Shown: piece after piece, positions 12,258-17,980 of the stretch
How positions within the stretch are numbered: position 1 is the first letter of the stretch
Layout of the letters: every line of letters begins with the position of its first letter
NCBI GenBank assembly: GCA_028818995.1
Contig: JAPPMR010000363.1
Coordinates: 1 to 23,056 of the forward strand
Length of the DNA: 23,056 nt
From: Candidatus Poribacteria bacterium
Lineage (GTDB): Bacteria > Poribacteria > WGA-4E > WGA-3G
Reading direction: 5' to 3'
Translations under genes and position numbers: made by a program
Notes under the pieces: generated by a model
What the model was told of the DNA's origin: nothing
Database searches by the model: none
What the model saw: the letters and a program-made list of their open reading frames with translations, nothing else

Positions 12258-12336
12258 TCGGTTATCAGTATTCAGTTTTCAGAAAGAGTCAATTGAGAAG
12301 ACGACTCTTAACTGATAACTGACTACTGATAACCGA
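12258..12336. repeat. Long imperfect inverted repeat between rpoB and rpoC
   Basis: The left arm 12258-12290 and right arm 12303-12336 pair over about 33 bases with a few mismatches, around a 12-base loop. Each arm is itself made of 7-base units: in the right arm AACTGAT, AACTGAC, TACTGAT, AACCGAC follow one another. There is no T-run, and rpoC follows with a good AAAGGAG site at 12347-12353, so an RNA hairpin for processing, stabilisation or pausing is more likely than a full terminator. Confidence 0.8.
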
Positions 12337-12361
12337 CAACTATATAAAAGGAGTAGAAAGA

Positions 12362-15300
12362 ATGGCAGACAAAGAAAATCGATTTAATCGTATCTCTATC
12401 AGTATCGCCTCGCCTGATCAGATAAAAGATTGGGCAAAACGGACATCTTGTAGACGCAGGAATCCAGCAAGTGATGCTTGGTCGTGTCCCGAGAAAGACA
12501 CCTGTGATTGCGGCGAAATCAAAAAGGCTGAAACGATTAACTACCGTAGTTTTCGTCCTGAACATCAAGGTCTATTTTGTGAAGCCACATTTGGCCCGCA
12601 AAAAGATTTTGAGTGCAGTTGCGGTAAGTATAAACGGATTAAGCATAAAGGTCTTATTTGTGACCAGTGCGGGGTTGAGGTGACAAAATCACAAGTTCGA
12701 AGAGAACGGCTCGGTTACATCAAACTTGCCACCCCTGTTTCCCATATATGGTTTTTCAAAGGTATTCCATCGAGACTAGGCACGTTCCTTGAACTTGCTT
12801 CCCGACAAGTTGAGCGCGTTCTCTATTTTGAAGCGTTCATTGTCACAGAGGTCATTGATGATAGTTGCGGTTTAGCTGAAAAAGATATACTTACGGAAGC
12901 GGAAGTGAGTGCTAAGCTGCGTGAGCATCCAAACTCGTTCCGAGCAGGAACGGGTGCTGAGGCAATTCAGGAACTCCTACGCAAAATTGATTTGCCAGAA
13001 GATGTAAAAAAGTTTACAGAAGAACTTGAGGCAACTTCCAGTCACCAGAAAAAAGTTAAACTCTCAAAGCAGCTCAAGATGGTGGCTGGTTTTGACAAAG
13101 CAGAGATGCATCCTGATTGGATGATTCTTGATGTGCTTCCTGTGATTAGCCCTGATCTTCGCCCTTTAGTTTCACTGGAAGGGGGTAGATTCGCAACGAG
13201 TGATCTCAACGATCTATATCGCCGCGTAATTAACCGAAACAACCGACTGCAAAAACTTATTGATCTTCGATCTCCCGAAGTTATTCTCCGAAACGAAAAG
13301 CGGATGCTCCAGGAATCCGTCGACGCGTTTTTGGATAACGGCAGACATGGGCGTCGCGTGACCGGACCCGGTAAACGTGCCCTCAAATCCTTATCCGACA
13401 TCCTCAAAGGTAAAGTTGGACGTTTCCGACAAAACCTCCTCGGAAAACGAGTTGACTATTCAGGTAGAAGTGTTATTGTTGTCGGTCCCGAACTTGAGCT
13501 CCACCAGTGTGGGGTACCTAAATTAATGGCTGTTGAACTTTTCAAGCCATTTATTATTGAAAAACTTTTGACATCTGGAAAAGTGCAGACTATCAAACGT
13601 GGAAAATATTTGACTGAACACGTAACACCGGATTCACCGGTTTGGGAAGCATTAGAGGAAGTTATCGCTGACCATCCGGTTTTGTTAAATCGTCCGCCGA
13701 CACTTCACAGACTCGGAATTCAGGCGTTTATGCCTGTTCTTGTTGAAGGGAAGTCAATTCGGATTCCACCGCTTGTTTGTAAGGCGTTCAATGCTGATTT
13801 TGATGGTGACCAGATGGCAGTTCATGTGCCGCTATCTATTGAGGCACGGGCAGAAGCGAAAATGTTACTGCTCAGTAGTGGTAATATCCTCAAACCTTCA
13901 CACGGTGAACCGATTACAGTGCCGGAACTTGATATGATTTTAGGCGCAAGTTTTCTAACAAAGGCACTGCCAGAACACCAAGAACGAGCAGCACAACTTC
14001 ATGCTGCATACACCGAAAAATCGGAAGATGCCGAGTCAAATAATGTTTTCGCATCACTGGAAAGTGAAGCATGGGCGAAGCGCCGTTTTACATCTGTAGA
14101 TGAGGTGACACACGCACACGGGTGTGGCACGCTTAAACTACATGATTCAGTTCTACTGTTTTTCAAAGAACATCACGAACCGATCCTCACAACCGTCGGA
14201 CGTGTTATTTTCAATGAGGTTCTTCCACATACAAATGGAACTGCCTCGCTCACTTGGAAAGATGAGACTACGGGGCTTGAATTGCCGTTTTTCAATGAGG
14301 AAGCACGTAGCAGACGTTTGTCGCAACTTGTCAAACGCTGTTTCAACGAACTCGGTACCGCAGAAACTGTATCACTGTTAGATCGGTTACAGAAACTTAG
14401 TTTTGAATACGCTACTCGCAGTGGCATTTCTCCCGGTATAAAGGATTACTTGATACCGCTTGACAAAACGGATATCCTTTCTGAGGCAAGTAAACAAATT
14501 CAGCGTTTAAGCGAGGAAGAAAACCTTGAGGCAGAGGAATTAGAGAACCAGAAGATTCGGATATGGTATGATGCTGTTGAAAAAATTGAAGAGACAATGT
14601 TTACTGAACTTCCGACGACAGAAACGTATCTGGTTGAACAAAATAAAGAGGTGGAAGGGTTTAGTCCGGTGCATCTGATGGCAGATAGTGGTGCCCGCGC
14701 ACGCAAAAATCCTTTCATACAAATTAGTGCTATCGTTGGATTGAAGTCTAAACAGAGTGGTGAGATTCTGTCTACGCCGATCCAATCTTCTTATCGCGAA
14801 GGTTTGGATGTACTTGACTACTTTACCTCAACCTATGGGTCACGGAAAGGGTTGGTGGATACCGCTATGAAAACCGCGGCCTCTGGATACCTTACGCGGA
14901 AACTGGTTGATGTAGCACAAGATGTGATGATCACTGAGGAGGATTGCGGAACAACACACGGAATCCTTAAATTTACTACAAACGCTGGCTCTATCAGCTT
15001 CAAAATTAGTGGTCGTGTTGCTGTGGAACCTGTAATACATCCCACAACAGAGGAAACGCTGCTTGAAAGTGATACACTCATTACACCGCAGATGGCAGAA
15101 ATTATTGAGATTGCTGAAGTCCCGAGCGTTCGAGTCCGATCTATACTCACTTGTGAGGCAGAGAAAGGTGTCTGCGCTGCCTGCTACGGCGCTGATTTAA
15201 CATCCGGACGACTCGCCAATGTTGGAGAGGCTATCGGCATCATCGCAGCGCAATCTATTGGTGAACCCGGGACACAGTTGACAATGCGTACCTTCCATAC

Positions 15301-17980
15301 AGGTGGTGTGGTTGAAGATATGAGTGAACGCCTTGCACGTAAGATTCTCGCGAAGGCTACCGGAAAAGTACGGTTTCGTGACTTCATTCCTGGACGCACC
15401 GTCCATGAAAAAGACGGACTCTGGATTGTAGAACAGGTTGCTGAACACCTTGACCAACCTAAATATAAGGTTAAGACCGTCCAACACCCAGAATGCAAGC
15501 TACAACCTGATGAACTTCTCACAGAGAAACAGTACCAAGAAAATATTGAGCGCTTTCCTGGGTTTGAGGTAGAACCTATTGCCTATGAGGTTGTCAAAGT
15601 AACCCGTCCAGATGTCGTTGAGGCAAACGGTGGAGCAGATTTCCCGCTGCAAGAAGGACAGTATCTAACTGAACAAGAATACAACGCCTATTTTCACAAA
15701 TTCTCACCGTTCCGATGCTCTGAACCGCACTATCGTGTGAAAAGTGTGAAGCATCCGAAGACTTCTCTGAAGGAAGGTACACTGCTGACAGAAAGCGAAG
15801 CGGAAACATGGCGTGCCGAAATTCGACCGTTTGACGGTGAATGGGTGTATGAAACCAAAGAGGGTGCTATCCTTACTGAAAGTGAATATCTACAGAAGCA
15901 GAACAGTGTTAAAGCGGAGATGAAGTATCAGATTCAGAGGGTAACGCATCCGAGTTGTCCGTTTAAGGAAGGGAAGCTACTTTCGCCAGACGAAGAGAGT
16001 CAGTACCATATGGAACTTGATGAACCGGTATATACCGTTACAGAAGTCAGCGACGGTATTGACTTAACTGTGGATCAAGAATTGACTGCTGCAGAATTTC
16101 GACGCGCACAGGAGACGTTTAGAACATTTGACGTACAACGCCCATCAACGCAGTTGTATCGTGTTACACAGGTCATGCACCCTGAATGTCCGCTAAGGGC
16201 TGACGAACTTATTGAGGCAGAAAAATTAGAGACGCTTCGAGATAAATTCAGCGGGTTTACTGCAGAGCGCCTTAAATACCGAATCACTGCTGTGCATCAT
16301 CCGGTTTGTAAGCTGGAACCTGAAACACTGCTCACCGAAAATGAGAAAAAAGCAGTATTGAAGGAATTCCCCGGTTTTGAGGTTGATGTCACTAAGAATG
16401 AAGAAGGTTTTGAGGTTGAACGGCTCTACCGCATTACTGCCTCACATCATCCTGAATTTCCTGTTGCTGTTGATGAATTCATCACGCAATCGGAGTCCAA
16501 TCGATATCGACGAAACTATAAGGGATTTGATTTTGAGAAGCTTTACCTTCATGTACCTGAAGGCTCTGAAACTGAGGAGACTTTGACAGAAGCGGACTAC
16601 AAGGCACTTGTTAAACAGCATCGAGACACGGATGCGCCCCCACCTAACATAAAACTGGTGTATCACGTCCTTGATGTTCATCACACCGAGTGTCCTTTTA
16701 CTGCTGGACAACGAATTGATGAGGAGGAATATAAACGCGCACAACGGCTTTATAAAGGCTTTGATACTGAACGGGCTTTTAAGGTAACAGGTGTATCTGA
16801 AACCGATTCCGAAATCGCTGTAGGCGATATTCTCAGTGATGCCGACTATAAGAAAGAATCGGCTTCCACTTCAAAAAATACCTATCGAGTGACGAAGGTG
16901 ATACACCCGAACTGTACGCTTACTATTGATCAAGAGTTGAAAGACTGGGAATATGCAACTGCCCTTGAACAATATGCAGGTGTTGATATAGATGGCTTAA
17001 TTGAAACCTTCCGAATAGATATTGATATTGTAGGCGGTGGAAGCGTATCACACCTTATTCCCGCTGGCTACTCAGTCTCTGTTAAGGATGGACAAAGCGT
17101 TAAAGCACAACATTCGTTGGCAGAATTGCAGGAGAAAACTACTAACCTTGACATTGTTGCCGGTATCCCGCGTGTGACAGAGCTTTTTGAAGCACGGCGT
17201 CCGAAACGCGAAGATGCCGCTGAAATTGCTGAGATTGATGGGCATGTGCAACTCACTGGACAAAAAGCGGGGGTACCCCAATACCGAATCGTAGATGGTG
17301 CTACCAAAAGTCGTCTATATTCGATCCCGGATGAGAAGCGACGGGTTGACGATGGTGACTGGGTCAAAGCAGGAGAACCTCTAACGGATGGATATCTCAA
17401 TCCACACGATATCCTTGCCATTGGTAGAACTACCCTTAACGGGCATTCTCTTGAAGGTGAAGAAGCACTTTGGGCATACCTTGTGGATGAGGTTCAGGCA
17501 GTTTATCCGACCAACAACATTAACGACAAACATGTAGAAGTCATTGTCCGGCAGATGCTGCAAAAAATACGCATTCTGACTGTTGGAGATACAAAGTTCT
17601 ACGCGAACGATGAAGTCAGTCGACACAAATTCCACGCGGAGAATAGACGTGTTGAGCAAGACGGCGGCACTCCCGCAACAGGTGAGCCTGTCTTGCAGAG
17701 CATTAGTAAGGCATCGCTCAGTACGGATAGTTTCATCTCTGCGGCGAGTTTCCAACAGACACCCAAGGTCCTCACCGATGCCGCTGTTGAAGGGCAAACG
17801 GATATGCTTACAGGTCTAAAGGAAAACGTTATCCTTGGACGCCTCATTCCCGCAGGTACGGGGTTCTCTGAGTGGCAGGAACTTGAAGTTTCCCGGGATG
17901 CAATTGATAATCCGGAACCAGAAGAACTACCTGAACCGGTTGCTGAACCTGAATTGATTGTTGAGACGGTTGAGGAATAA
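12362..17980 (+). CDS. rpoC: RNA polymerase subunit beta-prime with giant trigger-loop insert
   Basis: The catalytic subunit of RNA polymerase, 1872 residues against about 1400 in E. coli. In order: an N-terminal insert with Cys30, Cys42, Cys48 and Cys50 that E. coli lacks; the zinc ribbon Cys85, Cys87, Cys100, Cys103; 'GKRVDYSGRSVIVVGP'; the magnesium motif N-A-D479-F-D481-G-D483; the F-loop at 778-796, strongly altered; the bridge helix 'GSRKGLVDTAMKTAASGYL'; the second zinc site Cys862, Cys931, Cys938, Cys941; and the trigger loop first half M975-R-T-F-H979 (E. coli Met932 and His936). After Gly982 the loop is interrupted until about 1594, where 'NLDIVAGIPRVTELFEARRPK' resumes. The insert begins and ends with pieces like the sandwich-barrel hybrid motif of other SI3 inserts and encloses a repeat array. 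The C-terminal 20 residues are rich in Glu and Pro. No stop or frameshift is seen, so the gene looks functional. Confidence 0.97.
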   Translation: MADKENRFNRISISIASPDQIKDWAKRTSCRRRNPASDAWSCPEKDTCDCGEIKKAETINYRSFRPEHQGLFCEATFGPQKDFECSCGKYKRIKHKGLICDQCGVEVTKSQVRRERLGYIKLATPVSHIWFFKGIPSRLGTFLELASRQVERVLYFEAFIVTEVIDDSCGLAEKDILTEAEVSAKLREHPNSFRAGTGAEAIQELLRKIDLPEDVKKFTEELEATSSHQKKVKLSKQLKMVAGFDKAEMHPDWMILDVLPVISPDLRPLVSLEGGRFATSDLNDLYRRVINRNNRLQKLIDLRSPEVILRNEKRMLQESVDAFLDNGRHGRRVTGPGKRALKSLSDILKGKVGRFRQNLLGKRVDYSGRSVIVVGPELELHQCGVPKLMAVELFKPFIIEKLLTSGKVQTIKRGKYLTEHVTPDSPVWEALEEVIADHPVLLNRPPTLHRLGIQAFMPVLVEGKSIRIPPLVCKAFNADFDGDQMAVHVPLSIEARAEAKMLLLSSGNILKPSHGEPITVPELDMILGASFLTKALPEHQERAAQLHAAYTEKSEDAESNNVFASLESEAWAKRRFTSVDEVTHAHGCGTLKLHDSVLLFFKEHHEPILTTVGRVIFNEVLPHTNGTASLTWKDETTGLELPFFNEEARSRRLSQLVKRCFNELGTAETVSLLDRLQKLSFEYATRSGISPGIKDYLIPLDKTDILSEASKQIQRLSEEENLEAEELENQKIRIWYDAVEKIEETMFTELPTTETYLVEQNKEVEGFSPVHLMADSGARARKNPFIQISAIVGLKSKQSGEILSTPIQSSYREGLDVLDYFTSTYGSRKGLVDTAMKTAASGYLTRKLVDVAQDVMITEEDCGTTHGILKFTTNAGSISFKISGRVAVEPVIHPTTEETLLESDTLITPQMAEIIEIAEVPSVRVRSILTCEAEKGVCAACYGADLTSGRLANVGEAIGIIAAQSIGEPGTQLTMRTFHTGGVVEDMSERLARKILAKATGKVRFRDFIPGRTVHEKDGLWIVEQVAEHLDQPKYKVKTVQHPECKLQPDELLTEKQYQENIERFPGFEVEPIAYEVVKVTRPDVVEANGGADFPLQEGQYLTEQEYNAYFHKFSPFRCSEPHYRVKSVKHPKTSLKEGTLLTESEAETWRAEIRPFDGEWVYETKEGAILTESEYLQKQNSVKAEMKYQIQRVTHPSCPFKEGKLLSPDEESQYHMELDEPVYTVTEVSDGIDLTVDQELTAAEFRRAQETFRTFDVQRPSTQLYRVTQVMHPECPLRADELIEAEKLETLRDKFSGFTAERLKYRITAVHHPVCKLEPETLLTENEKKAVLKEFPGFEVDVTKNEEGFEVERLYRITASHHPEFPVAVDEFITQSESNRYRRNYKGFDFEKLYLHVPEGSETEETLTEADYKALVKQHRDTDAPPPNIKLVYHVLDVHHTECPFTAGQRIDEEEYKRAQRLYKGFDTERAFKVTGVSETDSEIAVGDILSDADYKKESASTSKNTYRVTKVIHPNCTLTIDQELKDWEYATALEQYAGVDIDGLIETFRIDIDIVGGGSVSHLIPAGYSVSVKDGQSVKAQHSLAELQEKTTNLDIVAGIPRVTELFEARRPKREDAAEIAEIDGHVQLTGQKAGVPQYRIVDGATKSRLYSIPDEKRRVDDGDWVKAGEPLTDGYLNPHDILAIGRTTLNGHSLEGEEALWAYLVDEVQAVYPTNNINDKHVEVIVRQMLQKIRILTVGDTKFYANDEVSRHKFHAENRRVEQDGGTPATGEPVLQSISKASLSTDSFISAASFQQTPKVLTDAAVEGQTDMLTGLKENVILGRLIPAGTGFSEWQELEVSRDAIDNPEPEELPEPVAEPELIVETVEE
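15464..17008 (+). repeat. Array of ~13 degenerate protein repeats inside RpoC
   Basis: Codons 1035-1549 of rpoC encode successive units of 27-50 residues. The fullest units run Y-[RK]-[VI]-x-x-V-x-H-P-x-C-x-L, then L-T-E-x-E, then [FY]-x-G-F-[DE]. Clear unit starts are YKVKTVQHPEC, YRVKSVKHPKT, YQIQRVTHPSC, YRVTQVMHPEC, YRITAVHHPVC, YRITASHHPEF, YHVLDVHHTEC and YRVTKVIHPNC. Weaker or shortened units lie between them. The DNA of the units I compared is clearly not near-identical, so the array is old and is not a recent slippage product. I do not recognise this repeat as a named family. Confidence 0.9.

Follow-up and report, generated by a model that had tools for sequence, protein, structure and literature searches.

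The window analyzed here is a 23,056-nucleotide stretch of a Candidatus Poribacteria genome (GenBank assembly GCA_028818995.1, contig JAPPMR010000363.1), and the element in question is a large insertion in the trigger loop of its RpoC, the β′ subunit of RNA polymerase; this loop opens and closes in each round of nucleotide addition. We are confident that this insertion is a lineage-specific SI3, in which the equivalent of the second sandwich-barrel hybrid (SBHM) domain of E. coli SI3 (SBHM-2) has been opened between two strands and holds 13 tandem, diverged relatives of the β′ clamp toe. The novelty lies in the identity of the repeat: its units are related to the β′ clamp toe, and such units are found again in RpoB of two related genera.

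A first-pass annotation, made from the letters of the window, had described an unbroken rpoC frame with about 610 residues inserted in the trigger loop, and frame, position and size all agree with what we find. The frame has zero internal stops, scores 1427 bits against the NCBIfam rpoC model TIGR02386 (cut-off 963.5), and retains NADFDGDQM and TQLTMRTFHTGG. The trigger loop begins normally (TQLTMRTFHTGG), breaks after Gly981-Gly982 (Gly982 at nucleotide 15305), and restarts at LDIVAGIPRVTELFEARRP. The gap from TMRTFH to the restart is 625 residues, and the insert stands between the two halves of the β′ trigger loop, which is the site of an SI3. A Pfam scan of the insert with E-values up to 1 reports zero families. 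An assembly error, which had been raised as a possible source of the array, is unlikely because the same gap is found in the nearest genome (G001, locus L001, with an RpoC 97% identical to that of the window) and in a single-contig genome of 5.3 Mb (G010, locus L008, gap 625); indeed, the array is present in many independent assemblies.

The insert had also been proposed to be an insertion inside an insertion, and this is borne out by structure prediction. The two edges of the insert fold as one SBHM in the AlphaFold2 (AF2) model, which VIA matches to SBHM-2 of E. coli SI3, so the insert has the SBHM/HABAS domain that characterizes an SI3. The E. coli-type SI3 (two SBHMs in the trigger loop, type 4 β′) occupies the same insertion site. 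Unlike it, the insert of the window lacks the first SBHM, and 511 residues from a different domain family interrupt the second. Sister families of Poribacteria appear, by eye, to have an E. coli-type SI3. Separately, in two loci of family f3 (L129, L130) the same second SBHM carries, at a slightly different point, an insertion of about 200 aa without repeat units. (Family and genus labels such as f1 or g1 are assigned relative to genome G001.)

The array consists of 13 units of about 40 residues each (range 28-50), with starts and boundaries assigned by us (Table 1). In a leave-one-out test with hidden Markov models (HMM), 13 of 13 units outscore all 200 of their own shuffles, ten of them at 19.1-47.5 bits and units 4, 10, and 12 by narrow margins, and the 13 units of the first-pass annotation are retained. 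Identity between units averages 26%, and Tandem Repeats Finder reports zero DNA repeats across the array region. For these two reasons the array is, as read from its sequence, an old protein repeat and not a recent DNA expansion.

Table 1. Features of the window that bear on the trigger-loop insertion (residues are those of the named protein).
Feature	Residues	Position	Strand	Basis or remark
rpoB, 1341 aa		8222..12247	+	zero repeat units detected, unlike rpoB of g2/g3 genomes read
rpoC, RNA polymerase β′ subunit, 1872 aa		12362..17980	+	open frame; TIGR02386 1427 bits
Clamp toe / small left claw (β′-bD2), domain related to repeat	155-201	12824..12964	+	profile comparison
Trigger loop, N-terminal part, TMRTFHTGG	974-982	15281..15307	+	sequence and gap measurement
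Host SBHM, N-terminal edge (GKVRFRDFIPGRTV...)	988-1034	15323..15463	+	
13-unit clamp-toe-like array	1035-1545	15464..16996	+	HMM tests, profile comparison, AF2
Unit 1, best conserved across genera	1035-1074	15464..15583	+	HMM test, conservation
Unit 2	1075-1123	15584..15730	+	HMM test
Unit 3	1124-1160	15731..15841	+	HMM test
Unit 4, short, degenerate	1161-1188	15842..15925	+	10.0 bits, best shuffle 7.8
Unit 5	1189-1223	15926..16030	+	HMM test
Unit 6	1224-1265	16031..16156	+	HMM test
Unit 7	1266-1305	16157..16276	+	HMM test, AF2
Unit 8	1306-1355	16277..16426	+	HMM test, AF2
Unit 9	1356-1393	16427..16540	+	HMM test, AF2
Unit 10, degenerate	1394-1433	16541..16660	+	8.2 bits, best shuffle 7.0
Unit 11	1434-1472	16661..16777	+	HMM test
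Unit 12, degenerate	1473-1507	16778..16882	+	8.1 bits, best shuffle 7.7
Unit 13	1508-1545	16883..16996	+	HMM test
Host SBHM, C-terminal edge (FRIDIDIVGGG...LIPAGYSVSVKDGQSVKAQHSLAEL)	1546-1591	16997..17134	+	AF2; VIA
Trigger loop restart, VAGIPRVTELF	from 1599	17156..17188	+	gap measurement

What are these units? Judged by profile comparison, the unit is a relative of the β′ clamp toe (the small left claw, sLC, or β′-bD2), a point that goes beyond the earlier reading. The unit profile matches the toe with an hhalign value of 96.8% (96.2% without Poribacteria), and 0 of 200 shuffles attain 50%. RpoC windows other than the clamp toe reach at most 13.0% against the unit profile (80 loci, none cyanobacterial). 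The BEAN (β-β′ module) was considered as the identity of the repeat and rejected, with an hhalign value of 5.5% and BEAN windows at 11.0% or below. Nor are these SBHM repeats of the cyanobacterial Si3 type: the units predicted by AF2 are strand-strand-helix-strand, cyanobacterial Si3 is absent among the 7 PDB sequence matches of the unit, and SBHM profiles leave the unit unmatched, so that the repeat does not fall into an already described type of SI3.

Several observations weigh against the clamp-toe assignment. The hhalign match spans 23-26 of the 37 columns, and toes from outside Poribacteria receive weak scores from the unit profile (median 3.6 bits). The PDB sequence matches have E-values of 0.21-1.2 and the Foldseek matches of a 3-unit model E-values of 1.8 or more, none individually significant; Foldseek on the whole model gives zero matches at E 0.001 or better. 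The VIA Z-score is at most 5.6, and the tool warns that values below 8 may reflect a mere common arrangement. Moreover, structurally the unit is slightly closer to bD7 than to the toe, and bD7 is unmatched by the unit at the sequence level.

In comparison with the sLC domains described in PMC11515920 (β′-bD2 and β′-bD7), then, the unit matches bD2 by sequence and may, on weaker grounds, share the predicted fold of bD2 and bD7. The sLC occurs singly at two conserved sites, and the units differ from it in forming a tandem array in the trigger loop and in occurring in β as well. Rare sLC insertions at other sites are reported in Firmicutes and the DST group (PMC11515920). The BEAN insertions of RpoB and RpoC (PMC11515920) likewise have one domain family common to β and β′ sites, unlike the array in that they leave the unit profile unmatched. 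The direction of copying is something that we infer. As a side observation, the clamp-toe region of three relatives (P0077, P0086, P0088, residues ~150-300) has two tandem unit matches, possibly a duplication intermediate.

How widespread is the array? Those relatives with a source-named organism are Candidatus Poribacteria (P0027, P0028, P0062, P0071). At E 0.001 or better the unit profile matches 66 of the 84 genomes of the phylum: 55 of 58 in f1, with 8-19 matches per genome (the others are G004 and G008, where RpoC itself was not found, and G069); all 11 in f2 and f4, with exactly one match each; none of the 3 in f3 (a match in one of them has E 0.0014); and 0 of 12 in the remaining families. 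For the six f2/f4 genomes with an RpoC that was read (L118-L123), the sole unit match is the clamp toe. Within f1, the family of uncultured bacteria to which the window belongs, an array occupies the trigger-loop site in all three genera, and for this reason it probably predates their divergence. Compared unit by unit, the best matches between genera follow the same order only in part: of the 11 window units detected, five have the same rank in L111 (1, 3, 6, 8, 11) and one in L112 (1), so the dating depends on the common site plus a few of the units.

A protein search gave 91 RpoC proteins; it scored 7,989 candidates, those sharing most words and of similar length, and because of this restriction the repeat may also occur elsewhere. 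Counts refer to the 85 proteins with both anchors (P0057, P0067, P0069, P0074, P0090, and P0091 are left out). At 8 bits or more, 83 of the 85 have 8-12 SI3 units and the other two have 15 or 17, all of them lower bounds since the threshold hides degenerate units. In 6 of the 85, extra units stand downstream of the DFDGD motif and ahead of the trigger loop, and in one they follow the trigger loop. The trigger-loop gap ranges from 622 to 1,062 residues and exceeds 665 in 7 of the 85; the longest (P0073) includes a nuclease domain. Whether unit number varies among relatives had been posed as a check: it is nearly constant within g1, the genus of the window, where every locus measured has a gap of 625-627, and sizes differ between genera. 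In RpoB, the g2/g3 genomes read (L111-L115) have 3-5 units ahead of SI1, and three g2 proteins (L111, L114, L115) carry 2-3 more in SI2; g1 RpoB (window, L116, L117) has zero.

A close parallel is in cyanobacteria, where Si3, at the same site, has 8-9 SBHMs and 630-645 aa and is called the largest in PMC10120043 and PMC10802570; the plastid SI3 of higher plants is given in one of these two as about 160 residues larger. Hence the insert of the window is large, as first noted, but its size itself is not new. Some Poribacteria gaps do exceed the cyanobacterial Si3, with 856 and 853 residues in g3 (L112, L113) and up to the maximum given above. Both are giant trigger-loop insertions built of a multi-copy module in bacteria without Gre. 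On the other hand, the cyanobacterial Si3 repeats SBHMs, and the Poribacteria array consists of clamp-toe (sLC) units inside one SBHM. We found no account of this array in the open-licence literature, as covered by titles and abstract openings, which is not proof of its absence from print; the word Poribacteria is absent from the main text of PMC11515920.

The factors that act through the secondary channel are largely missing. GreA_GreB_N (PF03449) is found in 0 of 84 genomes (controls match in 9 of 14), the GreA_GreB C-terminal domain (PF01272) in one of 84, below the curated cut-off, and a DksA-type zinc finger in 6 of 84, one of them among the 58 f1 genomes and none among the 14 of f2-f4. 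Since the families with an ordinary SI3 are among those without PF03449, the absence of Gre is probably older than the array. A loss of Gre in return for the array was considered and rejected on the same counts. Cyanobacteria are also without Gre, according to PMC7026648 and PMC10802570, and their Si3 shields the Gre/DksA site (PMC10802570). As a separate observation, four relatives (L116, RpoC residues ~700-1150; P0004, P0066, P0028) carry a further 340-430 residues that look helical by eye; they lie close to residue 700-722 of the window RpoC, by our reading the rim-helix region that would receive Gre/DksA.

The mechanism that we tentatively prefer, by analogy, is one of external docking. 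The array would fold into a series of strand-strand-helix-strand units running out from the SBHM and back to it, and the host SBHM, if placed as in E. coli, would lie near the mouth of the secondary channel. There the array could dock on the polymerase exterior as an integral structural module, fill the Gre/DksA side of an enzyme without those factors, steady the trigger loop, and brace the lobe, rim, and clamp, as Si3 does in cyanobacteria. Such docking and shielding may affect speed, pausing, or promoter complexes; an arch of SI3 and sigma stabilizes open complexes in cyanobacteria (PMC10120043). Two facts speak against this proposal: Gre is also absent in Poribacteria with an ordinary SI3, so the array is no direct trade with Gre, and the cyanobacterial Si3 is without effect on catalysis in the conditions tested (PMC10802570). 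Taken as a whole, identity plus docked structural module, we regard the explanation as evenly balanced between right and wrong. A bolder version, which we consider doubtful, has the clamp toe as a proliferating block that moved from the β′ clamp to the trigger loop and on to the β lobe (SI1), SI2, BEAN, and bD7, forming a jacket round the secondary channel that replaces Gre/DksA; this spread would be at the level of the family, long after polymerase insertion is thought to have tapered off.

Does selection act on the array? We estimated dN/dS by the Nei-Gojobori method within g1 (14 sequences, 91 pairs, retaining dS 0.05-1.5). The median is 0.114 for the array (17 pairs) and 0.118 for the SBHM edges (43 pairs), compared with 0.043 for the N-terminal core (24 pairs) and 0.035 for the C-terminal core (35 pairs). 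The array is under purifying selection, less tight than that on the core. Among 25 rows of g2/g3 type, conservation is highest in unit 1, with 53% identity to the window, and lowest in units 4, 5, and 12, with 14-23%.

These values bear on two rivals to the docked module. One is mostly neutral growth: secondary-channel loops freed from Gre/DksA would have tolerated insertions by tandem duplication, ectopic copying, or nuclease-domain insertion, and selection would now only maintain folding. The varying insertion sites (BEAN, rim-helix region, bD7, β SI1, SI2), the nuclease domains in some arrays, and the f3 insertion in that same host domain, which has no unit matches, are all in keeping with it. 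We think it unlikely given the dN/dS of the array, the conservation of unit 1 and others across three genera, and the near-constant gap of g1. The other, less probable still, is a recruitment arm whose units keep the docking face of the clamp toe and multiply the binding sites of a factor such as sigma region 2 or a Crl-like activator. Several units do hold strongly conserved positions, and PMC9974103 and PMC10120043 describe Crl tethering sigma S to the β′ clamp toe and cyanobacterial SI3 contacting sigma 2, respectively. However, we found no partner, units 4, 5, and 12 are poorly conserved, and another study describes the Crl-clamp contact as very small, ~85 A2, and as marginally or partially important (PMC6917491).

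An arm that binds nucleic acid or the ribosome, as suggested in the first-pass annotation, would suit the size and position of the array, and nothing further speaks for it. We regard it as very improbable: the net charge (K+R-D-E) of the array is -34 across 511 residues, which argues against binding nucleic acid.

Could the array be the relic of an intein or homing element? Endonuclease domains of the MTES_1575 type (PF18741) are found in frame in RpoC of some relatives (L117 in G009, P0011, P0014, P0073, P0086, P0089), adjoining repeat units or inside them, at BEAN or SI3 sites; above cut-off and inside RpoC-sized frames they occur in 3 of 84 genomes (G009, G034, G064). Even so, we give this origin almost no credence for the window, where the units match the clamp toe and neither the insert nor RpoC has any nuclease or splicing family. 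By Pfam there is no splicing (Hint) domain in the window insert, nor in P0014, P0073, or P0086. An intein was also considered for the ~400 extra residues of the L117 RpoC and rejected: inspection by eye shows no splicing motifs, what these residues hold is the MTES_1575 match and four unit matches, and P0014, of similar layout, is without a splicing family. We also observe, in the SI2 (~325 aa) of the L111, L114, and L115 RpoB and in P0101, units together with a segment similar by eye to the N-terminal domain of HsdR; by Pfam, no such domain is present in L111, and HSDR_N_2 is just above cut-off in P0101.

The SI3 reading with which we began adds Poribacteria to cyanobacteria and their plastids as a second lineage whose trigger loop has a giant insertion, here built from a different domain. 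PMC10802570 raises a possible link between the absence of Gre/DksA and the acquisition of Si3, in a trade-off that "remains to be fully understood"; the data on Poribacteria suggest a sequence in which the absence of Gre probably came before the array. Domain insertion into RNA polymerase is held to have tapered off after early evolution (PMC11515920), and the large, family-specific, in-frame growth described here bears on that view: an essential and conserved polymerase can apparently still gain large new parts. With the source domain identified, the role of the array is directly testable with an array-deleted enzyme.

Two minor observations complete the picture. A restriction of the repeat to RNA polymerase was considered and rejected: among the matches available (full lists for seven genomes, six of them f1, and for other genomes the matches listed), G083 has, outside rpoBC (L147:2062-4617), a separate 851-aa protein with four unit matches, tetratricopeptide repeats (TPRs), and HSDR_N_2 below cut-off. 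And in the rpoB-rpoC gap of the window, immediately upstream of the rpoC start, positions 12310-12341 hold a 14-bp tandem repeat of 2.3 copies.
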